From positions 53,948-117,947 of IMG/VR virus record IMGVR_UViG_3300025423_000009: a stretch of DNA of 64,000 bases; one strand, written 5' to 3'. Below the pieces are notes generated by a model. The model saw nothing but the letters and a program-made list of their open reading frames with translations, ran no database searches and was not told the origin of the DNA. Shown piece after piece: positions 5,982 to 63,653 of the stretch. Each line of letters begins with the position of its first letter. Within the stretch, counting starts at the first letter, position 1. A program made the translations under genes and the position numbers. The stretch comes from a virus.

Positions 5982-6679
5982 GTGCGCACGTACTTTCTTC
6001 TTACATATTCAAGTTCAGATTGCTTCTTCGCATCGCTAACCAAAGACGAGCTTATCTGATTCGAATGCTCGCGATTTGCCACCGTGATCTGATTGCAGAT
6101 CGCTGGAAGCCCATGCTTATCATACAGCTGCTTATAGTAGTCGACATCCATCAGCCATATCAAATTCTCATCGAATCGCAGGACGTTTTCATTCTTGAAC
6201 ATAATGACACTCGGCGAGCTGATAGTATTTGTGCCATATTGAATCTCATCATGATAGAATGGAAAGTTCGGTCGTTCCAGCCTGACACCGTCCGGAGACT
6301 GGCATGAAGCCGTTGCCAACCAGTAGTTTTGACTTCCCGCGAAATAGAACATCATTGCTTCAAGACTTCGATCGGAAGTTAGGAAGTCATCTTGAAAGAG
6401 TGGCTTTATCACCTTTCCACATGCGTGATGAATCGCATTGTTGGTATTGTGAGAAGAGTTACCTCGATTCATCGCTTTAACATATCGAATGAGTAAACGA
6501 TCATTCCATCGTTCGCATAGTCGATTGATCCCATCGTCGATGCTCTGATCGGACACGATCACTTCGAAAGACTTGAATGTCTGACGAGTTAGTATTGAAA
6601 ATGAATGTTCAAGGTAAGCGACGCCTTGACCGGCCATTTCATAAGTTGGAATGCATATCGATACGATCGGATCGTTCAT
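5978..6679 (-). CDS. glycosyltransferase family 2
   Basis: 233 residues with a GT-A fold: PIVSICIPTYEMAGQGVAYL, TFKSFEVIVSDQSIDDG, then VIKPLFQDDFLT, where QDD stands at the DXD metal-binding position, and LIWLMDVDYY as the catalytic Asp region. Short (families are commonly 250-330), so probably soluble and dependent on partner enzymes. ATGA overlaps with both neighbours indicate a single translationally coupled operon. Confidence 0.8.
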   Translation of the reverse strand: MNDPIVSICIPTYEMAGQGVAYLEHSFSILTRQTFKSFEVIVSDQSIDDGINRLCERWNDRLLIRYVKAMNRGNSSHNTNNAIHHACGKVIKPLFQDDFLTSDRSLEAMMFYFAGSQNYWLATASCQSPDGVRLERPNFPFYHDEIQYGTNTISSPSVIMFKNENVLRFDENLIWLMDVDYYKQLYDKHGLPAICNQITVANREHSNQISSSLVSDAKKQSELEYVRRKYVRT

Positions 6680-10882: not shown

Positions 10883-11956
10883 TTAAAAGAAGCTTTCAAG
10901 GCTACCGACATCTTCGGACGTCCAGTCGATCGACTTTAGAATCAGATCGAGAGGTTCCAAGAACGTCTTCTCGAATTGAGTGTCATAGTCGACAGAATTA
11001 TGTAGGCCGAGTTCCTTCGGCAGATCTCCTGCGGCCGGAAAGGCGATCACGTTCTCCTGAATCTCATTTGGAATCTTCAGATACACGAAGCGAATCTTGT
11101 CGCCAGACTGAATGCCTCGATAGGTGGATGTCAGGCCCTTGGCCTCGATCCAGTGATTGTACAGAAGTGCTCCACGAACGTGAATCGGTGTTCCCTTCTG
11201 ATAGATGGTTCCATTACTCTGCCAACCATCAACATCTGAAGTTCCTCGAGGAAAGGCGACTTCTCGAGGACTCATGGAAGAAAACTGCTTGCGAAATTCC
11301 GCGATGGCTTCCTGAGTAGCCGCCTTATTGCCAGTCATAATGATCTTGAACATGCGCTTCATGGCCGAACGACAGACGGCCGGAGTCGACGACTTGATCG
11401 CTTCAATCCCCATGATCTTTAGCTTAGGTTCCGTGTACCGCACTCCCTCATTGTCCAGAACGTTTAGAATGTAACGCTTCTTGGCCGTCCATACGGCACG
11501 ATCCGCGATGGCCTCACGCTTCATGATCATGCGATTCACATAAGCATTGGTAGCCTTGGCGAACTTATTGAATGCGACCTCGAGTTCCAGACCAATACCC
11601 TTCTCATAGAACTCATCGAGAAACTTGATAGGATCTTTTGGCTTGAACTTGTCGATCACGTCCTTCAGAGTCACATACACGGAGTCGGTATCGACGGCCA
11701 ACACTCGATCCTTCTCGATGCCAATCATCTTAGACACGTAACGATTCACGGTAGCTTCGGCCAAACGAATGGCCGTCTGACCGGACAGAGTCACGGCCTC
11801 GGCCACCTTAATGTTGAAGTAGCGGAAAAAACGATTTCCGAGTGCTCCGTACAAACTATTGAGAAGCACCTTCAGTGACTGTTGTTCGATTTCCAAGTTA
11901 GAAATCTGGGTATCGAGTTCTTTCAATTCCTTTTGCAATAATAAAAATTCACTCAT
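10883..11956 (-). CDS. 43B: DNA polymerase gp43, C-terminal half (palm motifs B and C, thumb)
   Basis: Family B polymerase from motif B onward: KVLLNSLYGALGN (residues 29-41), the catalytic AVDTDSVYV (Asp89, Asp91), KKRYILN, LKIMGIEAIKSSTP and a C-terminal SLESFF, matching the gp45-clamp binding tail of T4-like gp43. The first about 25 residues (MSEFLLLQKELKELDTQIS) are charged and helical and could pair with the helical tail of the N-terminal half. The upstream half ends 21 bp before, in the same frame, with two TGA codons between. Neither half alone has all palm carboxylates, so the two proteins must assemble. Confidence 0.9.
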   Translation of the reverse strand: MSEFLLLQKELKELDTQISNLEIEQQSLKVLLNSLYGALGNRFFRYFNIKVAEAVTLSGQTAIRLAEATVNRYVSKMIGIEKDRVLAVDTDSVYVTLKDVIDKFKPKDPIKFLDEFYEKGIGLELEVAFNKFAKATNAYVNRMIMKREAIADRAVWTAKKRYILNVLDNEGVRYTEPKLKIMGIEAIKSSTPAVCRSAMKRMFKIIMTGNKAATQEAIAEFRKQFSSMSPREVAFPRGTSDVDGWQSNGTIYQKGTPIHVRGALLYNHWIEAKGLTSTYRGIQSGDKIRFVYLKIPNEIQENVIAFPAAGDLPKELGLHNSVDYDTQFEKTFLEPLDLILKSIDWTSEDVGSLESFF

Positions 11957-11977: not shown

Positions 11978-13510
11978 TCAAAGCACTCCATTTTGCTTCA
12001 ATTGTTCAATCTTTTTTACAATAATTTCACGTTTTCTTTTTAATGAAAGGGTTTCATTTTTTGCGAGTTTTCTTTTAGTATACAGCTCCTCAACCAGAGT
12101 CGGAATGATGCCCTTCACGTCCTTTCGAAAGCACGCTCCGTTGGCCGCAACACAGACTCCAGGATCCTCGTCGAAGAGCGGCTTACCGGTCAACACGGCA
12201 TCGATGATCTGATTCGGATCGACCTTCATCGTCACGTGCGAGATGTAGGTTTCCGGAGACATGTTGTACTGCACGATGAGATTGGGATACTCCGAGTTGA
12301 TGTCACATGAGAGCACCCACTCATGCATTCCTTGCTGAACGTCCTTGACGTATCCACCAGCAAACTGAGGCACATGAGATGGAGGCTCGGATTGAAAGGG
12401 AACGACGACATTCCTATTGGCCAGCTTTCGAAAGATGATGGAATCCCAGATCGCCGTGGTTCCCAAAGTGTCCGCGTAATTCACACCACCCATGTATGAC
12501 ATCATCATCACAAGTTGAATCAGACCGAGCTTCTCTTCGAGGCGATCTACGAGCTCCACGTCTTTTATGTTGTACTCCAAAAATTTTTGATGATCCGCAT
12601 GATAGAGGTCATCGAGAGTGCCTTCATATTCCAACTTGCTTTCGTCAAGAACAACCTTGGCGATGTGATCGAGCGTGTATTGTTCCTGAGCACCATACGT
12701 GTAGCCAAACTTCTGAAAGAGATCCATGTAGTCAAGCTGTTGAATGCCGACGAGCTCATACATCAGCTGCATGCGACCTTTGAGCTTTACTTCCTTGGAT
12801 TCAATGATGTTCCAGGGACTTAGCATCTTCGAAGCCTCTTCTCCACCAAGCTTGGAGATTCGAGTGGCCAGATACGGCACGTCGAATGCACGGGTGTTCC
12901 ATCCGGTGATGATGTCTGGCGAGTTATCCGGATGAATCCACCAGCGAAGAAAGTCCTCGAGCATCTGACCCTCGGTTTGAAACTGACGATAGTCGATCAT
13001 ATATCGAGACGTCTTGCAGAGTGAAGGATCAAAGGCCTTGAGTCCCCAAGTGTGGCACGTATTATCCGTCGAACACTTGACCGTGATCGCGACGATGGGA
13101 TTCTTGGCTTCCGATGCCTCCGAGTAACCCCAAGCTTCCTTACCAACCTCGATGTCCAACGTGCACGTACGAATCAGCGACTGCTGATAATGAATGCTCA
13201 GAGGAAACTGAGCTTGAATAAATGCCGGAACGTGACGATCATTGCCATAGATCTTGAAGGATGGCACGTGCTTATACGTCTCCACGAACTTACGGCATTC
13301 CGACATAGAGTCAAATTGCATAGGTTCGACTGGAGTTCCGTCGAGTCCTTTGAATTTCGTCTTTGATGGATCCTTGGCTTCAAGGTACATGGTCGGACGA
13401 AAACGAACCTTCTCCTGAACTCTCTGACCGTTACGATCATACCCACGAATCAGGAGCGAGTTTATAGAACGGGCGATCGATGTGTAGAATGCGAGGTCTA
13501 GTTTGGCCAT
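11978..13510 (-). CDS. 43A: DNA polymerase gp43, N-terminal half (3'-5' exonuclease and palm motif A)
   Basis: 510 residues covering the N-terminal, exonuclease and first palm segments: ExoI TLDIEVG (Asp119, Glu121), ExoII GWNTRAFDVPYL (Asn205, Asp210), ExoIII YNIKDVELVD (Asp317) and polymerase motif A SCDINSEYPNLI (Asp403), with Glu where most enzymes have Leu. It stops in the fingers after ELYTKRKLAKNETLSLK and an AT-coded helical tail. Split gp43 at the fingers is known from some Aeromonas T4-like phages; here there is no insert gene. A 12-bp hairpin lies 22 nt before the start. Confidence 0.92.
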   Translation of the reverse strand: MAKLDLAFYTSIARSINSLLIRGYDRNGQRVQEKVRFRPTMYLEAKDPSKTKFKGLDGTPVEPMQFDSMSECRKFVETYKHVPSFKIYGNDRHVPAFIQAQFPLSIHYQQSLIRTCTLDIEVGKEAWGYSEASEAKNPIVAITVKCSTDNTCHTWGLKAFDPSLCKTSRYMIDYRQFQTEGQMLEDFLRWWIHPDNSPDIITGWNTRAFDVPYLATRISKLGGEEASKMLSPWNIIESKEVKLKGRMQLMYELVGIQQLDYMDLFQKFGYTYGAQEQYTLDHIAKVVLDESKLEYEGTLDDLYHADHQKFLEYNIKDVELVDRLEEKLGLIQLVMMMSYMGGVNYADTLGTTAIWDSIIFRKLANRNVVVPFQSEPPSHVPQFAGGYVKDVQQGMHEWVLSCDINSEYPNLIVQYNMSPETYISHVTMKVDPNQIIDAVLTGKPLFDEDPGVCVAANGACFRKDVKGIIPTLVEELYTKRKLAKNETLSLKRKREIIVKKIEQLKQNGVL

Positions 13511-13665: not shown

Positions 13666-14094
13666 TCAACCCTTCAGACACTGTTTATCAGCATTGATGG
13701 AGATCTTCTTGGGCTTGAGTTCATCCGGAATATTATGAATCAGCGTGATCGACAAGACACCGTCAATGAAGTCCGCGGACTTGACCTCCACGTGTTCGGC
13801 CAGCGTGAACTTCTTCGTAAAGTCTCGACGAGAGATTCCCTGATGAAGAGTCGCGGACTTGAGAGAGCTTTCGTTGAGGCCCTTGGTGCCGGAGATCGAT
13901 AGTTCTCCATTATGAACTTCAATTGAGATCTCTTTCTGCTTCCATCCGGCCAAAGCCAGATCAACACGATACTCATGATCCGAGATCTTCAGCACGTCGT
14001 GTGGAGGATAGGTTTGAATGTTGGACCAGTTTTCCGTCTCGAGGAGATCGAAGAGACGATTGAACCCGATGAAGTAATGACGAGGATACTGCAT
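13666..14094 (-). CDS. hsp20: small heat shock protein (Hsp20/alpha-crystallin)
   Basis: ATP-independent holdase chaperone. From Met at 14094 (MQYPRHYFIGFNRLFDLLE), preceded by a clear Shine-Dalgarno GGAAAGGAAAG, it is 142 residues. Alpha-crystallin domain: HEYRVDLALAGWKQKEISIEVHNGELSISG, GISRRDFTKKFTLAEHVEV, SADFIDGVLSITL; the C-terminal KPKKISI is the I-x-I-type anchoring segment. T4-like cyanophages carry an hsp20 near the replication module. A late-type TATAAATA lies at 14203, about 110 nt upstream, so it may be expressed late for virion folding. Confidence 0.93.
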   Translation of the reverse strand: MQYPRHYFIGFNRLFDLLETENWSNIQTYPPHDVLKISDHEYRVDLALAGWKQKEISIEVHNGELSISGTKGLNESSLKSATLHQGISRRDFTKKFTLAEHVEVKSADFIDGVLSITLIHNIPDELKPKKISINADKQCLKG

Positions 14095-14202
14095 AATGAC
14101 TTTCCTTTCCCGCTTCCAATTAAGCGAAGCGATTGTTGTTGTGTTTCTCGACCATCCGATAGGCATGATCGAAGATCGTCCAACCTTGGACCGATCAGAG
14201 TT

Positions 14203-14210
14203 TATTTATA
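14203..14210 (-). promoter_or_regulatory. late promoter upstream of hsp20
   Basis: TATAAATA on the minus strand, about 109 nt before the preferred hsp20 start; one of the few late boxes in this window with a long leader and a good ribosome binding site downstream. Confidence 0.6.
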
Positions 14211-14216
14211 TACGAA

Positions 14217-16721
14217 CTAGGCGGCCCGTGAAACTTTTGTCTGAGCGTACTGCTGCGCATAGGTCGAGAAGGCATCCGCATTGTCTTGCATGCGCTTCTT
14301 CACACCTGAAAGTCCGCTTCGAAAGTCCTTTGAATTCAGGTACTCATTGGCCACATGAGACCAGTTTCCAGAGGTGATCAGTGCCCAGGTCTTTGGCGTC
14401 GCCCTCGGTCCCAGATCTCCACGATACCAAGCCGAGAGGATCGCGTTCTTCACGTACTGAGGAAGCGTGTCATAACTCGGTAGATTCATGCGAATCGAGG
14501 CTTCACGAATCGCGATATCCTTCTTCAGAAGATTCAGCGCCTCAGAGTCCGTGAGTCCTGCTGAGAAGTCTTCATCGGGTTGAATCTTGTGACCGTAAGC
14601 GATCGTGTCGGATCCGCCTTCCAGACTTCGCGCGGGAAACCACTTTCCGGAAGCTTTGTCATATCCGCCGTTAGGATTGTCTTTGGAGTTCTCGTAGCCC
14701 ATCAGGAGCTGTTCTGGAGTGGTGGCCGTCAGAGGTGTCATCTTATTGGAAATCGTATGAGTGATGTGTGCCTTGTTATGAGGCACGGAATGATGCTTGG
14801 CCGATGCGCCATGAGCTCCGGTCAGAGAAGCCGCACCGATCAATCCAGCCGCGGCCAGCGATCTCCAGTCCTCTTCCAGCGCATCGGGATCATCGGACCA
14901 TGATAGCAAGTGGTCCTTGAGCTCCGCGATCGTCTGAGTGGCATTCCGATGAAGGATGCCGATGCCTCCTCGAGATCTCCAGGCGCGAATGTTTTCTTCC
15001 AGATCATCGATGAGAATGTGATTCGGCGCGGCCCAATACTTCTTATCCTTTCCATGATCGGCCACAATGACTTCAAAGGAATTACCTAATTCTCGTGCGC
15101 ACCAGATCTTCTTTCCTCTCTCAGCACGATCTCCAGTCATAGAAGTCGCACCGGCCGTAAGAATGATGGGATTCTTATCCTTGATGAAGTTCCAGAGCTG
15201 ATGGCCGTCCTGTGCCCAGGAAAGGTCGCTCCACCACTCCACACCGCCAGCATTGATTCGACGCCAGAGTTCCTCGAGACCATATTCCTTGACCGCGTCA
15301 TTCCACAGAAGGCCTCCGGTAAGCTTCTTTAGAGGCGTGTCGAAGTCGATCAGAACACCATCCATGTCGCAGTAGATCTGAAGCTTCTTGAAGTTCTTCT
15401 GATCGGTGCCTTCATCCATTCCGGGTTGCCACAGCACGCGATATTTCGAGTTGACATCGTCGATCAGTATAAGTTGATTCTCGATAGCCAAGTTCTTGAG
15501 CTCACGAATCTGAGACGGACTGGCCTTCCATGAAAACACCAGGCTTTCACCGTCACAGATCACTCGCACCCATCCAGCCTCGGCCAACTGAGCGCTCCAA
15601 CGATCCATCCATGAATCGTCCGAATCGTACTTACCACCAAGGATCTCGGCCGCAGCGGGTTCATGATCCTGCACGGAGATGAGTCGAAGATCCGGAGTCA
15701 TGAAGAACTTGCCTTCCTGAAACGGATCCTTCAGAGTGCCTTTATCAACTTTTCTAAAAAGCTTGCCAGAAGCGGAGACGGAAGAGGCATTCAGACTCTC
15801 ATACATCTTGAGAAGGGATCGATCCGAGATGATCTCGAAGAAAGTCTTGGCCTTCTCGCCGCCATTAAGCTTATGATAGTCGAATTCGATCGAGGAATGA
15901 ATCGGACGATAGTGAAGAGTACGATCTCCCGAGACGATCAGGATCTGTCCCGTAGTAACCATCTCACCCTTGGCCGGATCGCCTTTGCGAATCGGATTCA
16001 TGAACTGATCGTCCTTGTTCGGACACCGAGCCAGAGCCGTCATGAGATCTCGTGGATTCACGGCATCTGGAACGCTTTCCGCGGCGATGGCCAAGCGTGA
16101 CTCGGAAGACTTACGAGCGCGAATGAACTTCTCGTCCGTGGCCGTGGACGAGTAGCCTAGTGTAGGAACGTTGATGCCGTGATTGGTACGAGCCGACCAT
16201 CCAACCTCCTTGGAGATCTCCGTGACCGTGGAAGTGTATTTACGAGGATTGTCTTTGGTCTCCTCTTCTTTGGAAACGTTCCATCCGCCCTCGAGAAGGT
16301 AGCAGTGTTCCGTGTCGAAGGCATAGGTAGCACCGGCCAGTTCCTCTTCTTGAAGGAGCATGATGGCGTCCTTGGCCGTCGTCTGTAGAAGAGCCTTGCG
16401 AATCTTCTTGCCGTCTGGTGAGTAGTAGTCCGTAGACTTCTTGTACTTGTCGCCGGGTTTGGGCATCCCCTTACTTTTGCCTTTACTTGCCAGTTCTCCC
16501 TCTTTCTCATCTCGCTTGACGGAGAATGAGGCCGAGATGATTCCAACGCCGAACTCATTGACTCCCTCGGTCCATCGTGAAAGAGTGTCGTCGATGTAGA
16601 TGCGTTGAATGCCGTCTTTATTGGACTGAACGATCTCGATCTTGGTTGGATACCCACGATCGCGATTTTTTGCTCCTACCCACCCGTATTTTTCGAAGTA
16701 TTTGACAGCGCAAGTACACAT
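14217..16721 (-). CDS. three-domain fusion: Ntn hydrolase-like, HAD nucleotidase-like, lysozyme-like
   Basis: 834 residues. N-terminal part (1 to about 330): MCTCAV with a Cys directly after Met, AKNRDRG and SARTNHG, the pattern of Ntn hydrolases of the choloylglycine/acyltransferase type whose Cys2 becomes the nucleophile. A middle HAD domain (about 447-605) has YCDMDGVLIDF (Asp452, Asp454), ILTAGA and ILIDDLEENI. An Ala-rich hydrophobic stretch (about 620-640) precedes a C-terminal GH24-like region (665-825): GYENSKDNPNGGYD, SLEGGSDTIAYGHK with Glu677, Thr706 and His711. A late promoter box ends 7 nt before the ATG, suggesting a late lysis or virion enzyme. The combination is new to me. Confidence 0.7.
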   Translation of the reverse strand: MCTCAVKYFEKYGWVGAKNRDRGYPTKIEIVQSNKDGIQRIYIDDTLSRWTEGVNEFGVGIISASFSVKRDEKEGELASKGKSKGMPKPGDKYKKSTDYYSPDGKKIRKALLQTTAKDAIMLLQEEELAGATYAFDTEHCYLLEGGWNVSKEEETKDNPRKYTSTVTEISKEVGWSARTNHGINVPTLGYSSTATDEKFIRARKSSESRLAIAAESVPDAVNPRDLMTALARCPNKDDQFMNPIRKGDPAKGEMVTTGQILIVSGDRTLHYRPIHSSIEFDYHKLNGGEKAKTFFEIISDRSLLKMYESLNASSVSASGKLFRKVDKGTLKDPFQEGKFFMTPDLRLISVQDHEPAAAEILGGKYDSDDSWMDRWSAQLAEAGWVRVICDGESLVFSWKASPSQIRELKNLAIENQLILIDDVNSKYRVLWQPGMDEGTDQKNFKKLQIYCDMDGVLIDFDTPLKKLTGGLLWNDAVKEYGLEELWRRINAGGVEWWSDLSWAQDGHQLWNFIKDKNPIILTAGATSMTGDRAERGKKIWCARELGNSFEVIVADHGKDKKYWAAPNHILIDDLEENIRAWRSRGGIGILHRNATQTIAELKDHLLSWSDDPDALEEDWRSLAAAGLIGAASLTGAHGASAKHHSVPHNKAHITHTISNKMTPLTATTPEQLLMGYENSKDNPNGGYDKASGKWFPARSLEGGSDTIAYGHKIQPDEDFSAGLTDSEALNLLKKDIAIREASIRMNLPSYDTLPQYVKNAILSAWYRGDLGPRATPKTWALITSGNWSHVANEYLNSKDFRSGLSGVKKRMQDNADAFSTYAQQYAQTKVSRAA

Positions 16722-16728
16722 TTGTTCC

Positions 16729-16736
16729 TATTTATA
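16729..16736 (-). promoter_or_regulatory. late promoter, 7 nt before the fusion protein start
   Basis: TATAAATA followed by GGAACAA and the ATG at 16721. The predicted start of transcription falls at or next to the start codon. Confidence 0.75.
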
Positions 16737-16743
16737 TCGAAAT

Positions 16744-17187
16744 CTACTTCGTTTTCTTAACGTTGCCGATCTGATACTTGGCTACCAGATTCCAAGTTGG
16801 CTTGTCTTTGAACGGAATGATCTTGATCTGCTTGAGATCCAACTTCTGTGGCTGTGCTTTTTCGGAGTGTCGAATCTTCACCAGACCCCAGTCGTCCAGA
16901 AGCTGAGCGATCGTGTTTCGACGAGATAGATCATCGATTGAGAAGTCCGATGGCTTTCCGTCTAGCATGAAGAGCTCCTTGAAGTGAACTATGAAGTAGT
17001 ATCCGCGCTTATGGAGCAGATGACAAGACTGATAGAGCGTGTTGACTTCCTTCTTGGAAGCGATGCCGATTCGAGTCAGCGTTTCACGTACCTTGAGAAA
17101 GTCGTCGGGCTCGTTGAGAGTTACCTCGAGCATCTCCTGAGGAGACCAAGGAGCAAGTGTGTCTTGAGATTCTTGTTGTGGAGTCAT
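16744..17187 (-). CDS. regA: RegA translational repressor
   Basis: RNA-binding protein that represses translation of early phage mRNAs at their start sites. Closely T4-like: LEVTLNEPDDFLKVRETLTRIGIASKK, LYQSCHLLHKRGYYFIVHFKELFMLDGK, RRNTIAQLLDDWGLVKI, IIPFKDKPTWNLVAKYQIGN. 147 residues versus about 122 in T4; the first 18 residues are extra and the T4-like start would be Met19 (MLEVTLNEP). It follows gp62 as in T4. An AATAAATA box at 17212 lies 24 nt upstream of the first Met. Confidence 0.95.
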   Translation of the reverse strand: MTPQQESQDTLAPWSPQEMLEVTLNEPDDFLKVRETLTRIGIASKKEVNTLYQSCHLLHKRGYYFIVHFKELFMLDGKPSDFSIDDLSRRNTIAQLLDDWGLVKIRHSEKAQPQKLDLKQIKIIPFKDKPTWNLVAKYQIGNVKKTK

Positions 17188-20723: not shown

Positions 20724-21689
20724 TCACGCCTCAATGAGCTTATACTTCTTGCCATCAATCTCGATAAGCTTGCCAACACATGAGGATTCAGGCTTCGATT
20801 CTTTCTTTGGAGCGGGAACGATGACAAGCTTACCGTAACCCACATCACCAATAAATGTAGCGCATTGAATCTCATACTTGTCGATCGCGCATTTTTCATA
20901 TACGTTAATTCCAGCGAAAACCGTCAGGCCAGCATTGATGCCCTCGCCAGCCTTGATGCCCTCGCCAGCATTGATGCCACAGCCAGCCTCGATGCCCGTG
21001 CCAGCCTTGATGCCCCAGCCAGCCTTGATGCCACAGCCAGCCTCGATGCCACAGCCAACATCGATGCCCCAGCCAGCCTCGATGCCACAGCCAACATCGA
21101 TGCCCCAGCCAGCATTGATGCCCGTGCCAGCCTTGATGCCCCAGCCAGCATTGATGCCACAGCCAGCCTTGATGCCATAGCCAGCCTTGATGCCCCCGCC
21201 AGCATTGATGCCCCAGCCAGCATTGATGCCCTCGCCAGCCTCGATGCCCCAGCCAGCCGTGATGCCCTCGCCGGCATTGATGCCATGGCCAGCATTGATG
21301 CCCTCGCCAGCCTTGATGCCCCCGCCAGCATTGATGCCCTCGCCAGCCTTGATGCCCTCGCCAGCATTGATGCCATGGCCAGCATTGATGCCCTCGCCAG
21401 CCTTGATGCCCCCGCCAGCATTGATGCCCCAGCCAGCATTGATGCCCTCGCCAGCCTCGATGCCACAGCCAGCCTTGATGCCACAGCCAGCATTGATGCC
21501 CCAGCCAGCATTGATGCCACAGCCAGCGCCAAAAACTATGCTTCCGGTACAGCTTATGCCTTTATGGAAACGAATGACTCCTAGATCATCATCAGACGTA
21601 ATATGCCCATCGAAGTTTTCAAGATTCTGAGCACCGACATAGAAGTTGTTCTCGTCAAGGTGACTTTTAGCAATAGCGAATGTTTTCAT
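20724..21689 (-). CDS. G-x-G-I-x-A hexapeptide repeat protein
   Basis: 321 residues. An N-terminal domain (1 to about 50, KTFAIAKSHLDENNFYVGAQNLENFDGH) leads into some 34 uninterrupted copies of a six-residue unit, G-I-(N/K/E)-A-G-x, where x is mostly W, C, E, G, T or H, then a C-terminal part (VYEKCAIDKYEIQCATFIGDVGYGKL) with ESSCVGKLIEIDGKKYKLIEA at the end. The regular period suggests a solenoid or beta-helix. The repeat has open frames on several strands, which are by-products. Function unknown; a surface, adhesion or ice-binding-like role is possible. Confidence 0.75.
   Translation of the reverse strand: MKTFAIAKSHLDENNFYVGAQNLENFDGHITSDDDLGVIRFHKGISCTGSIVFGAGCGINAGWGINAGCGIKAGCGIEAGEGINAGWGINAGGGIKAGEGINAGHGINAGEGIKAGEGINAGGGIKAGEGINAGHGINAGEGITAGWGIEAGEGINAGWGINAGGGIKAGYGIKAGCGINAGWGIKAGTGINAGWGIDVGCGIEAGWGIDVGCGIEAGCGIKAGWGIKAGTGIEAGCGINAGEGIKAGEGINAGLTVFAGINVYEKCAIDKYEIQCATFIGDVGYGKLVIVPAPKKESKPESSCVGKLIEIDGKKYKLIEA
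20930..21541 (-). repeat. 18-bp tandem repeat array inside the hexapeptide gene
   Basis: About 34 tandem 18-bp units on the plus strand, CCAGC(A/C)TTGATGCC(C/A)xxG-like. Third-position and x-codon changes differ between units, so the array is diversified rather than freshly expanded, except for near-identical longer blocks (for example around 21265-21320 and 21340-21395). Confidence 0.85.
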
Positions 21690-35096: not shown

Positions 35097-35759
35097 TTAG
35101 CTGATATCCCGAAGGAATTGCTCAAATGATTTGATCTGAGCTTCAGCGTAAAATTCTTTGCTTCGTGTCTGACGGATTTTCTTCAACGACTCGTTCATTC
35201 GATCGACTTTGTTGGCAACGTACTGTTTTCCATCAAACACCCAGTCAACCGATTCCATGATTCCCTCGACGAAGGCCGAGGGAGCCGAGGGATCCTGAAC
35301 AATGTCGACCGTGGCCAGACTATAATCTGGCTTCACGTAGGTCTTACCTGCGCGGGATTCAACTGAACCCATGCCGCGAGAGGACACTCCAAGTTTCACT
35401 CCACCATCCAATAGGCCCTTGACGATCTGTCCCATCGGAGTGTTGAGAATCAGTGCCTTGCCATACACATCATCTCCGTTCCAGTTCAATTCCGTGATGC
35501 GATGTGACACTTTATCCAGATTGATCGTGGGACCGTCCGGGTGATTTAGTTCACCTACCGCACGGCCAGTCGACACCTGCTCGGCGACGAAACGACTGAC
35601 GGCCTCACGGAGTACGGAACGAGGATAGATTCGATTATTTCGATTCTGCTTCTCGGCCTGCATGAAAACGCCTTCCAAGAAGTACTTCTTCTCGGTGCCG
35701 GCACTTTCAATGAGAGGCTTGATGCCGTTCTCGTTATACTCCGTGATGAGTAAAGCCAT
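35097..35759 (-). CDS. 21: prohead maturation protease gp21
   Basis: 220 residues, S77 serine protease. YFLEGVFMQAEKQNRNNRIYPRSVLREAV, catalytic His in GELNHPDGPTINLDKVSHRI, VYGKALILNTPMGQIVKGLLDGGVKLGVSSRGMGS with the catalytic Ser, then VDIVQDPSAPSAFVEGIMES. Cleaves scaffold and capsid subunits during head maturation. Complete, and immediately downstream of a homing endonuclease gene (6 bp gap). Confidence 0.95.
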   Translation of the reverse strand: MALLITEYNENGIKPLIESAGTEKKYFLEGVFMQAEKQNRNNRIYPRSVLREAVSRFVAEQVSTGRAVGELNHPDGPTINLDKVSHRITELNWNGDDVYGKALILNTPMGQIVKGLLDGGVKLGVSSRGMGSVESRAGKTYVKPDYSLATVDIVQDPSAPSAFVEGIMESVDWVFDGKQYVANKVDRMNESLKKIRQTRSKEFYAEAQIKSFEQFLRDIS

Positions 35760-41321: not shown

Positions 41322-42947
41322 TCACAGAGAATCCCATGCGCGCTGCTGCTCGAGCATCTCGCTGTACACTTCCATTGATCGAGTCGCCTCTCCTTGAGTT
41401 GCTCCTCCCAGGAAACCAGCTGGCACCAGCTCGTCCTCCATCGCCTTCACGGATTCCGCAAAGAGCATCTCCTTGAGCTCTCCGTCCTTTAGCTCCGCAA
41501 ATGGAGTGGTCAGAAACCAAGCCAACATCACGAGGTTCATCACGAGGTCATCATGATTGTTTCCCTCGGCCTGATAGCTGTCTCCATGAGCAGCAAACGT
41601 AGATAGTTCGAGTATCGCGTCGGAGTCATGAATCGTCAGCTTCTTTCCCTCGATCAGATCTTTCAGGAACGAGCATCCAACCTTCTTGACTCTCTTGGTC
41701 ATCGTAACGCCGATGCCTCCCTTGACTCCAGATCGTTCCACGAAGGTGTTCTCGTATTCCATGTCATAATATACTCCGTTGCAGACCACCTGTCCGACGT
41801 CATTGTTCTCAATGACGATCAGAGCCTCGTTGAATCGCTTGGCCACGCCAACAATGAGATCCGGAAAGATTAGCGGAGAGATCAGATTGTCTCGAAAGGT
41901 AGCCACCTGCTCGAACGGACGAACCGAGAGATCCGTGACCGTCAGAGTGGAATAGTCCTGTCCTCGTCCCTTACATACGTCGACCGTGACGACATATCGA
42001 TGCCCTTCAATCGGCTTCTGATAGATCTTCACGTTGCGAATCGTCTCGATTGGTATCGAAGCCTTCAGAGCCAGCAGATGTTCGGCCGCAATAAGAGTGT
42101 CCGTAGATCCAATCGCGTGATTGTTATACTCTTGATCAAATTGTGCCTGAGACGTATTGGCGATAGTTTCCTGCTTCCACTTCTCGTCTCGTCCTGGAAC
42201 ATCCCACCAGTCCACACGAAAGGGTTTATACTCATTGGCTCCTTGAACCGCTCCTTGCCAGAGCCGATAGAAGAGATTACCAACTCCGTTCATGGTCGAT
42301 GTGATGATGACCTGCGACTTCTTGCCAGAAGAGATCACCGGATAAGTTGACGTGTAGAAGGTATCCGCATCGTTTACGAATGAAAACTCGTCAATGTAAA
42401 GCAATGAAATCGATTGACCGCGAATGGAGTTGCCCGATGTGGCGGCCGCGATGATTCGCGAGTTATTGGAGAATGAGATCGATCCTTTATTCAGAGCACG
42501 ACATCCCGGTTGCAGAAAGAACGGCAGATTTTCCAGAGCCAGAGTAATGCGCGCCAGCATCTCGCGAGCCGTCATGCCCTTATTGGCCAGGATAGCTATA
42601 GTCTTATCGGCGTGAAAAAGAGCATACCATAGAAGATATATCGATACGGACACAGACTTTCCCGATTGACGGCATGCCAATACAATGTTGAATCGATTCT
42701 CATTGAACTGCTTGAACATCTTCTCCTGATATGGATAGAGATTGAAAGGAACCAATCCCTTGTCGATGTTGATGATCTTGCAATATGTTCGAGCGAAGTA
42801 GGCCGGATCGACCATGCACTTCTTATACTCCTCAATCTCCTTAGCCGTGAAATTCTGCTGAATGCCATCACGCTTGACATTAGCATTGCCAAGATATGAA
42901 AGGCCGATCTTCGACTTGTCAATTACACGTTGCATATTTTGGAGCAT
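41322..42947 (-). CDS. 17: terminase large subunit gp17
   Basis: 541 residues. ATPase with ACRQSGKSVS (Walker A, about 91-100) and SLLYIDEFSF (Walker B, Asp186, Glu187), then the RNase H-like nuclease VVTVDVCKGRGQDYSTLTV (first metal Asp), IVIENNDVGQVVCNGV and NHDDLVMNLVMLAWFL (last Asp pair). Packages DNA through the gp20 portal. The start codon region is overlapped for 29 bp by the end of the homing endonuclease gene, so gp17 translation is likely coupled to it. Confidence 0.96.
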   Translation of the reverse strand: MLQNMQRVIDKSKIGLSYLGNANVKRDGIQQNFTAKEIEEYKKCMVDPAYFARTYCKIINIDKGLVPFNLYPYQEKMFKQFNENRFNIVLACRQSGKSVSVSIYLLWYALFHADKTIAILANKGMTAREMLARITLALENLPFFLQPGCRALNKGSISFSNNSRIIAAATSGNSIRGQSISLLYIDEFSFVNDADTFYTSTYPVISSGKKSQVIITSTMNGVGNLFYRLWQGAVQGANEYKPFRVDWWDVPGRDEKWKQETIANTSQAQFDQEYNNHAIGSTDTLIAAEHLLALKASIPIETIRNVKIYQKPIEGHRYVVTVDVCKGRGQDYSTLTVTDLSVRPFEQVATFRDNLISPLIFPDLIVGVAKRFNEALIVIENNDVGQVVCNGVYYDMEYENTFVERSGVKGGIGVTMTKRVKKVGCSFLKDLIEGKKLTIHDSDAILELSTFAAHGDSYQAEGNNHDDLVMNLVMLAWFLTTPFAELKDGELKEMLFAESVKAMEDELVPAGFLGGATQGEATRSMEVYSEMLEQQRAWDSL

Positions 42948-43680
42948 ATACTATTAGCATAGAATATATGTATCCTAGCGATTGAATCGTCGCATTATAT
43001 GCAAGGCGTCTATTCTGTTTTACCGTATCTAATCCTTTCAATACCGATTCTCGTGATCTTTTTTTACCTAACAAAGATTGTGCTATTTTTAATCTTTTTT
43101 CAATCGTCATATTCGCAGCACACGTGTTAGACATTTTTTTGCAATATTCTATAGATCTTGGTTTTTTAAGTTTTTTACCTTTATTGAGTTTAGACAATTT
43201 ATCTTTATGTTCCCGAGATAGCGGTTTAAGTTTTCTACCGATAGCTTTTTCTGATATTCTACGTTTAGTTTCTTCAGTATGCGGTTTTCCTTTTATGCCT
43301 TTTTTTCGAATATAAGAGCCATTGCCTCCACTGTTACTTTTATTCAACCATGATTTATTTGCGGCCGCATTTACTCTTTGCAAAAATTTAGCTTCATATG
43401 CTCTAGTTTGTTCAATAGAATTAAACAAGATAATTTTCTTAATCATAAAACTATCATGTCCTTCATGTTTTATGATTTGCTGCACTAATTTTGAAGATGT
43501 GATATAGCCATCATTTGTCATAAATGTAGCAGGATTTGTTTCTCTCTTAAATGATTGGGCTCTTGCATATTTAGAACCAGCATAATATAGTTTACTAGTT
43601 TTATGTTGAATAATATAGAAAAATGGAAGTTTAGGAAGTGAACACAATAGTTCATGCGAAGGATGTCGATAAATATGCAT
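42919..43680 (-). CDS. GIY-YIG-like homing endonuclease (upstream of terminase)
   Basis: 253 residues, strongly AT-rich. LPFFYIIQHKTSKLYYAGSKYARAQS fits the GIY-YIG core, DGYITSSKLVQQIIKHEG and RAYEAKFLQRVNAA supply the Arg/Glu region, followed by NUMOD3 repeats (GKPHTEETKRRISEKAIGRK, SREHKDKLSKLNKGKKLKKP) and a helix-turn-helix-like end. The first 12 residues (MHIYRHPSHELL) seem to come from another gene, the relative of the plus-strand protein at 41185. Free-standing mobile gene overlapping the gp17 start. Confidence 0.8.
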   Translation of the reverse strand: MHIYRHPSHELLCSLPKLPFFYIIQHKTSKLYYAGSKYARAQSFKRETNPATFMTNDGYITSSKLVQQIIKHEGHDSFMIKKIILFNSIEQTRAYEAKFLQRVNAAANKSWLNKSNSGGNGSYIRKKGIKGKPHTEETKRRISEKAIGRKLKPLSREHKDKLSKLNKGKKLKKPRSIEYCKKMSNTCAANMTIEKRLKIAQSLLGKKRSRESVLKGLDTVKQNRRLAYNATIQSLGYIYSMLIVYAPKYATCN

Positions 43681-62741: not shown

Positions 62742-63653
62742 TTACGTGATTTGTATAGCGGCCCAATAGAAAGTTCCATTTTGTCCGCTACCGTTAATAT
62801 TGGCATTGAAGCCATTCGGAGATAAGTCTACAAAGCGTGGAAGGGTCGCATCGACTTGAGTTAAAGATCCGGCCACGACAACATAGTTAGCAGATGGCAT
62901 CGGAGTTGTAAATACCACGGTTCCGGCGATTCCACTCGTTGAACCAGGATAGGTCAATACAACGGTTCCAGATCGAATGTTTTGATTGATCGTCGTAGCC
63001 GCCAGATTGATCTTAGATCCGGCTATATTGATGACTCCATTTGGTGCCAATTCAACGAATCCACCATCCTTATGAAACAATGAGATTCGTTCATGGTTTT
63101 TAGTGTCATCATATTCGATCACATGGCCCGAGCGAGTCTTGATGACCTGATTGTTCGGATACGATGGAGCAATATATGAAAGATCGATGAATGATCCGGC
63201 GAAGGCGCTCTTGGCCGCAACGGTCAGAGAGCTTGAAGTCGCCTCGCTCGGAATGTCGAATCCTAGAGCTTGAGGATTGACTCCAGAAGGATCCGAGAAT
63301 CCTTTGGTCGAATCAGCCTTGCTGCTTGACTTGGAAGCGATGGTTCCTAGAACGATCGGATCCTGAGCCGATGGCCCATCACGAAAAAAGCCAATAACCC
63401 AAGATCCTTGTTGAATTCCGGTGGCCGACTGTCCGATTCCAGCCATGGAAGGAGACGTGATCGGAAGTAGGCATAGGGCCCAGGGAAGTCCAGAAGTCGG
63501 AAGCGCCGCAAGGTTATCGGTATGATATCCTACACAGCGAACTCGTACGCGTCCCATCTGAAGAGGATCGCTGACGTCCTCGACGACTCCGTGAAACCAG
63601 TAGAAGTTTCCTCCATACGACGCGAAGTCGTCTTTATGATGAATCGAGAGCAT
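62742..63653 (-). CDS. 5: baseplate hub protein gp5-like (OB-fold and beta-helix, no lysozyme)
   Basis: 303 residues. N-terminal OB domain FYWFHGVVEDVSDPLQMGRVRVRCVGYHTDNLAALPTSGLPWALCLLPIT, GSWVIGFFRDGPSAQDPIVLGTI, as in gp5/VgrG; then TRSGHVIEYDDTKNHERISLFHKDGGFVELAPNGVINIAGSKINL begins the spike beta-helix. The lysozyme domain of T4 gp5 is missing. The C-terminal TVVFTTPMPSANYVVVAGSL domain is also seen in tail spikes. Wall-degrading function may instead come from the 14217 or 49144 proteins. Confidence 0.88.
   Translation of the reverse strand: MLSIHHKDDFASYGGNFYWFHGVVEDVSDPLQMGRVRVRCVGYHTDNLAALPTSGLPWALCLLPITSPSMAGIGQSATGIQQGSWVIGFFRDGPSAQDPIVLGTIASKSSSKADSTKGFSDPSGVNPQALGFDIPSEATSSSLTVAAKSAFAGSFIDLSYIAPSYPNNQVIKTRSGHVIEYDDTKNHERISLFHKDGGFVELAPNGVINIAGSKINLAATTINQNIRSGTVVLTYPGSTSGIAGTVVFTTPMPSANYVVVAGSLTQVDATLPRFVDLSPNGFNANINGSGQNGTFYWAAIQIT

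Follow-up and report, generated by a model that had tools for sequence, protein, structure and literature searches.

What does a T4-like phage do with three unrelated catalytic folds in a single late polypeptide? The window analyzed here, a 64,000-nucleotide stretch of a 118-kb virus record, encodes an 834-residue protein that begins MCTCAV, with Cys as codon 2, and is surrounded by T4-like replication and head genes (Table 1). The first-pass annotation had proposed that this ORF follows a late promoter by 7 nt and joins three catalytic domains in one chain. Both proposals held: the box TATAAATA lies at that distance from the ATG, and the three parts were assigned to an N-terminal nucleophile (Ntn) hydrolase by fold, to a HAD phosphatase by phrog_2643 and to a lysozyme by the Phage_lysozyme HMM. 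Besides these three domains, the protein contains a fourth segment, residues 306–445.

Table 1. Features of the fusion gene and of its surroundings in the window.
Feature	Position	Strand	Basis or remark
Fusion ORF, Ntn hydrolase / orphan segment / HAD / lysozyme	14217..16721	-	834 aa
Ntn hydrolase domain, C45/C59-like, PB clan, residues 1-305	15807..16721	-	AF2, Foldseek, VIA, 24-member alignment A2
Cys2 codon, predicted nucleophile after Met removal	16716..16718	-	invariant in A2 and in 110 distinct family members
Orphan segment, residues 306-445, from Met306 (MYESLNAS...) exactly at the Ntn domain end	15387..15806	-	
HAD phosphatase, 5'(3')-deoxyribonucleotidase type, residues 446-612	14886..15386	-	phrog_2643, E 2.7e-23
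Linker (LEE followed by DWRSLAAAGLIG) and phage-lysozyme domain, residues 613-834	14220..14885	-	Pfam Phage_lysozyme, phrog_7
T4-type late promoter box TATAAATA	16729..16736	-	7 nt to fusion ATG
Upstream neighbor, conserved left border of the variable slot	16744..17187	-	synteny in relatives
Downstream neighbor, hsp20-like, conserved right border	13666..14166	-	own late box 14203-14210
Prohead (head maturation) protease gp21, same phage	35100..35759	-	PF03420, E 1.0e-41; phrog_207, E 1.4e-75

Late expression appears common to the relatives, as ATAAATA occurs at most 80 nt upstream of 40 of the 54 distinct family-cluster genes, including the HAD-lysozyme genes of L004–L006. At four loci (L042, L044, L053 and L081) this late box starts just 12–13 nt before the Ntn ATG, so late transcripts there may be nearly leaderless. 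The upstream neighbor, which we take from its position to be regA-like, and the hsp20-like gene downstream delimit a slot whose content varies between relatives. Beyond it, the gp43-like DNA polymerase of the window is split into two ORFs of 510 and 357 aa (10883–11956 and 11978–13510, minus strand), with the same split in L002; the relatives L004–L006 have a single ORF of ~855–865 aa. Elsewhere in the window, a 321-aa protein (20724–21689, minus strand) is mostly a short repeat of the GI(K/N)AG(C/W/E) type, and both strands have long open frames there; an ORF adjoining the terminase gene gp17 (42919–43680, minus strand) resembles GIY-YIG/NUMOD3 homing endonucleases.

The window Ntn domain had no usable match in Pfam, NCBIfam or PHROG; it was recognized only through its relatives and its fold. 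The sole relative among deposited phages was found in the Chryseobacterium phages MA9V-1/2, with 27% identity to the window domain. This homologue scored just below the cut-off of the Pfam AAT profile PF03417 (E 1.5e-4, 22.0 bits, cut-off 23.2); the window domain did not match that profile, and 4 of 24 relatives did (best E 6.9e-6). A two-sequence alignment of the window and Chryseobacterium phage domains reached 245 viral stretches, of which 80 were kept as loci. Scanning bacterial and archaeal genomes with this alignment and two narrow patterns returned zero relatives. Titles and abstracts of papers contained nothing relevant on choloylglycine hydrolase or Ntn hydrolases carried by phages, or on a fusion of deoxyribonucleotidase and lysozyme.

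Seven residues (C2, K18, R20, D21, N55, N180 and R209) are invariant across 24 aligned members. From this alignment, AF2 modeled residues 1–305 with a pLDDT of 85.7 and a pTM of 0.87. The significant Foldseek matches in the PDB were Ntn hydrolases, namely isopenicillin N acyltransferase (IAT), choloylglycine/bile-salt hydrolases (BSH), penicillin V acylase (PVA) and NAAA, with a probability of 1.00 to IAT, BSH and NAAA. VIA aligned 199 residues at an rmsd of 2.7, with Z scores of 15–20 (up to 19.9), and placed Cys2 of the model on Cys126 of NAAA, Cys103 of IAT, Cys2 of BSH and Cys1 of PVA. This superposition, together with the fold and the invariance of the Cys, supports the first-pass proposal that Cys2 is the predicted nucleophile. 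The model and alignment thus provide a solid assignment of residues 1–305 to an Ntn hydrolase domain. We claim no closest subfamily, because NAAA, CV2077, ceramidase and IAT differ by only a few Z units in the VIA ranking. The domain shares its fold with the C45/C59 enzymes (isopenicillin N acyltransferase, NAAA, acid ceramidase, bile-salt hydrolase and penicillin V acylase), and the phage family has in common with them a Cys at the mature N-terminus (predicted in the phage proteins) and a conserved Arg/Asp/Asn set, which we equate with the corresponding BSH residues. It differs in having only about 8–17% identity to them and in lying below Pfam AAT detection. The same fold was found in BFVD for A0A8S5L6I8, an uncharacterized protein of Myoviridae sp. 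ctA4D8 (TM 0.79, E 9e-28); that protein has 355 aa, with no function given in the table returned, as opposed to 834 aa for the window protein.

The position of the Cys follows a rule across the family. After a second scan had added a sister clade, the family comprised 110 distinct members, with the Cys at residue 2 in 54 and directly behind a leader in 56. All 56 leaders end in [LIV]xE, a motif found at 1.1% of the positions when the mature domains serve as background. Position P3 is Leu in 29, Ile in 22 and Val in 5 (51 with Leu or Ile), ten different residues occur at P2, and P1 is Glu throughout, encoded by either codon. Leaders start at a length of 4 and mostly span 4–32 residues; in L089 the domain is internal, at residue 335. 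The 56 leader-type members would have been retrieved with any leader, since each contains TDWSEGM, which was one of the two patterns searched for. On the Ntn tree, three changes are needed between the Met-Cys and leader states, and the Met-Cys members are nested inside the leader clade; the leader can therefore be lost, with the Cys still ending up first. In these sequences, then, the Cys would be either at the protein start or one predicted cut away from it, and such a rule across 110 members appears to be new.

The residues before the Cys of the leader-bearing relatives suit a viral protease and not the known autoprocessing sites of C45/C59 enzymes. In T4, the prohead protease gp21 cleaves after L/I-X-E (PMC9026906) and removes a six-residue leader ending in ITE from Alt (PMC5694885). 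The [LIV]xE that precedes the Cys thus looks like the T4 prohead-protease motif, and the short leaders of the Ntn relatives resemble those of the gp21-processed internal head proteins of T4 (Alt and IPI–III), as in the six-residue ITE leader of Alt. A gp21-family protease is encoded by the window phage itself and in 16 of 21 further records tested (12/17 and 4/4, including MA9V-2), several of the negatives being fragments. The Ntn homologue of MA9V-2 (WNN12488.1) has a leader ending FINE directly before CVIAA. In many relatives, the predicted leader cutter would be the virus's own capsid-maturation protease.

Gene neighborhoods point the same way. Of the 56 leader-type Ntn genes, 20 have a terminase, portal, protease or capsid gene no more than about 4 kb away, as against 0 of the 54 Met-Cys genes; the gene order is gp21-x-x-x-Ntn-x-x-MCP in L141 and Ntn-x-TerL-portal in L172. 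The nearest stand-alone lysozymes (L194 and L195) have a leader ending LLHEQKLIE directly before APV and their genes adjoin that of the major capsid protein; an N4-like virion RNA polymerase also begins with a related lysozyme stretch. Most simply, the leader-clade enzyme would be packaged into the prohead, where gp21 would free its nucleophile. Virion cargo is likely for the Ntn family, given the [LIV]xE leaders, the 20 genes near head genes and the stand-alone lysozyme relative beside capsid genes. The window protein differs from the T4 internal head proteins, and from the many leader-type relatives that adjoin head genes, in that it starts Met-Cys without an [LIV]xE leader, and its gene sits among replication genes. 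With Cys2 predicted to be exposed by Met removal, it may also be virion cargo, with less certainty than for the family. The first-pass suggestion of a virion-borne enzyme is thus borne out for the Ntn and lysozyme families by gp21-type leaders and head-gene neighborhoods, and extends to the window protein by inference.

A further gene was observed directly upstream of stand-alone Ntn genes (cluster c6; L037:3275–3958 and relatives, about 228 aa). Its product has an N-terminus of the form MKSF/YxEY/F...QEE, like T4 capsid-targeting sequences, a hydrophobic C-terminal part and no PHROG match, and may be an internal head protein.

Following the Ntn domain, the orphan segment had relatives only in near-identical contigs and in L004 among the viral contigs, phages and loci in hand. 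A likeness to the N-terminus of L098, seen by eye, was not significant when the two were compared. The HAD part retains intact motifs (DxD at D452/D454, T522 and DD at D572/D573) and has about 30–40% identity to phage 5' nucleotidases by tblastn. In the lysozyme part, the GYEN and SDTIAYGHK motifs noted earlier are both present. All five members scanned matched Pfam Phage_lysozyme (PF00959; best 3e-10), although the window copy, scored by itself, fell just under the cut-off (E 2.1e-4, 22.0 bits, cut-off 22.3); this part also matched the phrog_7 endolysin profile (E 5.1e-8) and, as its best PDB match, T4 lysozyme (E 1.5e-3). It shares the Phage_lysozyme profile, a candidate catalytic Glu (E677) and a candidate Thr (T706) with T4 lysozyme/GH24 endolysins and the Schitoviridae virion RNA polymerase stretch. 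The role of E677 is assigned by position only, because the HMM match does not reach this residue. The Glu-to-Thr spacing is 29 residues in the window protein, as opposed to 15 in T4 lysozyme, whose catalytic pair we take to be E11/T26. Per-domain structure prediction, which had been proposed as a check, was successful for the Ntn domain and not for residues 302–834 (orphan, HAD and lysozyme parts), which were modeled at a pLDDT of 39. A membrane anchor considered at the hydrophobic stretch 622–635 was dropped, the best 19-residue mean hydropathy being 1.13. At the HAD/lysozyme junction, LEE617/D618, Glu is present in all eight distinct relatives compared, within [LV]xE in seven and as VQE in L190. 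A gp21 cut here is possible; we do not claim one, because such motifs arise about nine times by chance at this protein length.

The first-pass annotation had also used the absence of a lysozyme domain from gp5 to argue for a wall-cutting role. The window gp5 indeed lacks this domain (62742–63653, 303 aa, Gp5_OB), but the argument carries little weight, because the gp5 frame is also short (255 aa) in L021, which has a stand-alone Ntn gene, lacks HAD-lysozyme and shows no phrog_7 match in its record of 174 kb.

The slot between regA and hsp20 preserves a history of the fusion. In many aquatic T4-like contigs, a stand-alone Ntn gene of ~304 aa lies at the same place, between regA and hsp20-gp43 and under a late box, and the window Ntn part ends at residue 305, about where these stand-alone proteins end. 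At four other loci (L005, L006, L191 and L193, the last cut by the contig end), the slot holds a HAD-lysozyme gene of about 393–413 aa without Ntn. The L006 gene starts MCAV downstream of Ntn-like sequence, which may be what is left of an Ntn gene lost by deletion. In L190, from another lineage, the same slot encodes an 863-aa protein with Ntn (62%) and lysozyme (68%) parts at its ends and, in its middle, a Pfam InPase domain (5.1e-41) and a HAD-like stretch differing from the window HAD. Independent genes in relatives had been named beforehand as an observation that would count against a three-domain protein. The Ntn and HAD-lysozyme parts are indeed separate genes in relatives, indicating a gene fusion, not one ancient enzyme, yet the full fusion recurs in L190. 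The two full fusions agree at their ends and differ in the middle, so that the fusion is recurrent and probably selected.

Two further rearrangements were seen among the relatives. L004 carries an orphan-HAD segment with 96–99% protein identity to the window protein (L004:5547–6500). The rest of the locus is ~93% like L005, so that the HAD is present twice in a protein of 736 aa; this is a recent transfer or an assembly chimera, and because of the latter possibility we did not use it as functional evidence. In L082, a separate downstream gene of 87 aa (6083–6343) corresponds to the C-terminal tail that the Ntn protein has in L079 (L079:4001–5059), another fusion or split in the Ntn family.

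Proteins of phages and plasmids that combine several unrelated enzymatic domains, and are predicted to enter the host with DNA, have been described as polyvalent proteins (Iyer et al., 2017; PMC5512222). Lysozyme and InPase are among their phage-type domains, InPase being listed as phage-type only, and the terms NTN, N-terminal nucleophile, acylase and amidase are absent from the main text (PMC5512222). The window protein resembles them in joining unrelated enzymatic domains, including a lysozyme, in one polypeptide and in late expression (predicted from the promoter for the window protein), and L190 does so in carrying InPase. It differs in that no zincin peptidase was recognized in it. Polyvalent protein appears to be the best label for the fusion, and an Ntn hydrolase as the leading domain would be new relative to the defining paper (PMC5512222).

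Our preferred explanation, to which we assign a probability of roughly 0.55, is that the gene encodes a polyvalent protein, made late by a T4-like phage, that is carried in the virion and delivered to the host together with the DNA, its lysozyme opening the wall for a two-enzyme cargo. In the mechanism we infer, the gene would have been born by fusing genes that share the regA-hsp20 slot in relatives. Host methionine aminopeptidase would take off Met1, leaving Cys2 as the N-terminal nucleophile; the Ntn domain, an amidohydrolase/acyltransferase of the NAAA/IAT/bile-salt-hydrolase type, would cleave a small or peptide amide; the middle HAD would remove phosphate from nucleotides or a related phosphoester; and peptidoglycan would be cut by the lysozyme at the C-terminus. 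Carried in the virion and into the host with the DNA, the protein would thereby open the wall for two metabolic or signaling enzymes.

A multi-domain endolysin would instead stay in the cytoplasm until holin opens the membrane, whereupon the lysozyme lyses the cell, with the Ntn and HAD domains acting late in the cell, for example on nucleotide pools. We regard this as unlikely, although several observations are in its favor. The gene has a late promoter, phrog_7 is annotated as endolysin, relatives have HAD-lysozyme alone under a late box, and the fusion is the only phrog_7-type match in the 118-kb record, which may hold endolysins of other classes. However, two additional catalytic domains make this a large enzyme for that role, and a tail lysozyme is also among the PHROG matches. 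The lysozyme relatives argue against it as well, the closest stand-alone ones carrying virion-type leaders beside capsid genes and a related domain starting the N4-like virion RNA polymerase.

Packaging would be unnecessary if the fusion were an accident at a recombination hot spot, with an amidase for a host metabolite, a nucleotidase and a lysozyme acting separately as a late intracellular set. The highly variable regA-hsp20 slot, the window-like orphan-HAD insert in the otherwise L005-like locus of L004 and the absence of Met-Cys-type genes near head genes would all fit, but the recurrence of the full fusion in L190 with a different HAD and InPase points to selection for the combination, and we find this explanation decidedly doubtful. 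An artefact, whether a chimeric assembly or a missed stop codon, is hardly credible. L004 could be a chimera, but nothing suggests one for the window protein: its 834-aa ORF recurs at 100% protein identity in two further IMG/VR contigs (L002 and L003) and a second full fusion lies at the same locus of another lineage (L190), so the ORF is not an assembly accident, and GC is even across domains whose active sites are conserved.

Returning to a polyvalent virion protein as the preferred explanation, we give even odds to a broader picture in which the widespread phage Ntn family consists of head-carried zymogens, with a short leader over a Cys that is freed when the prohead protease matures the capsid, active in the virion and ejected into the host. 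The window branch would rely on Met removal instead and be fused to a phosphatase and a wall cutter as self-delivering cargo. If so, capsid maturation would double as an enzyme-activation switch, and an amidohydrolase family of antibiotic, bile-salt and lipid-amide chemistry would be tied to virion cargo. The analysis offers an annotation for several hundred unannotated viral genes, and a single locus displays a polyvalent protein evolving through domain fusion and swapping.
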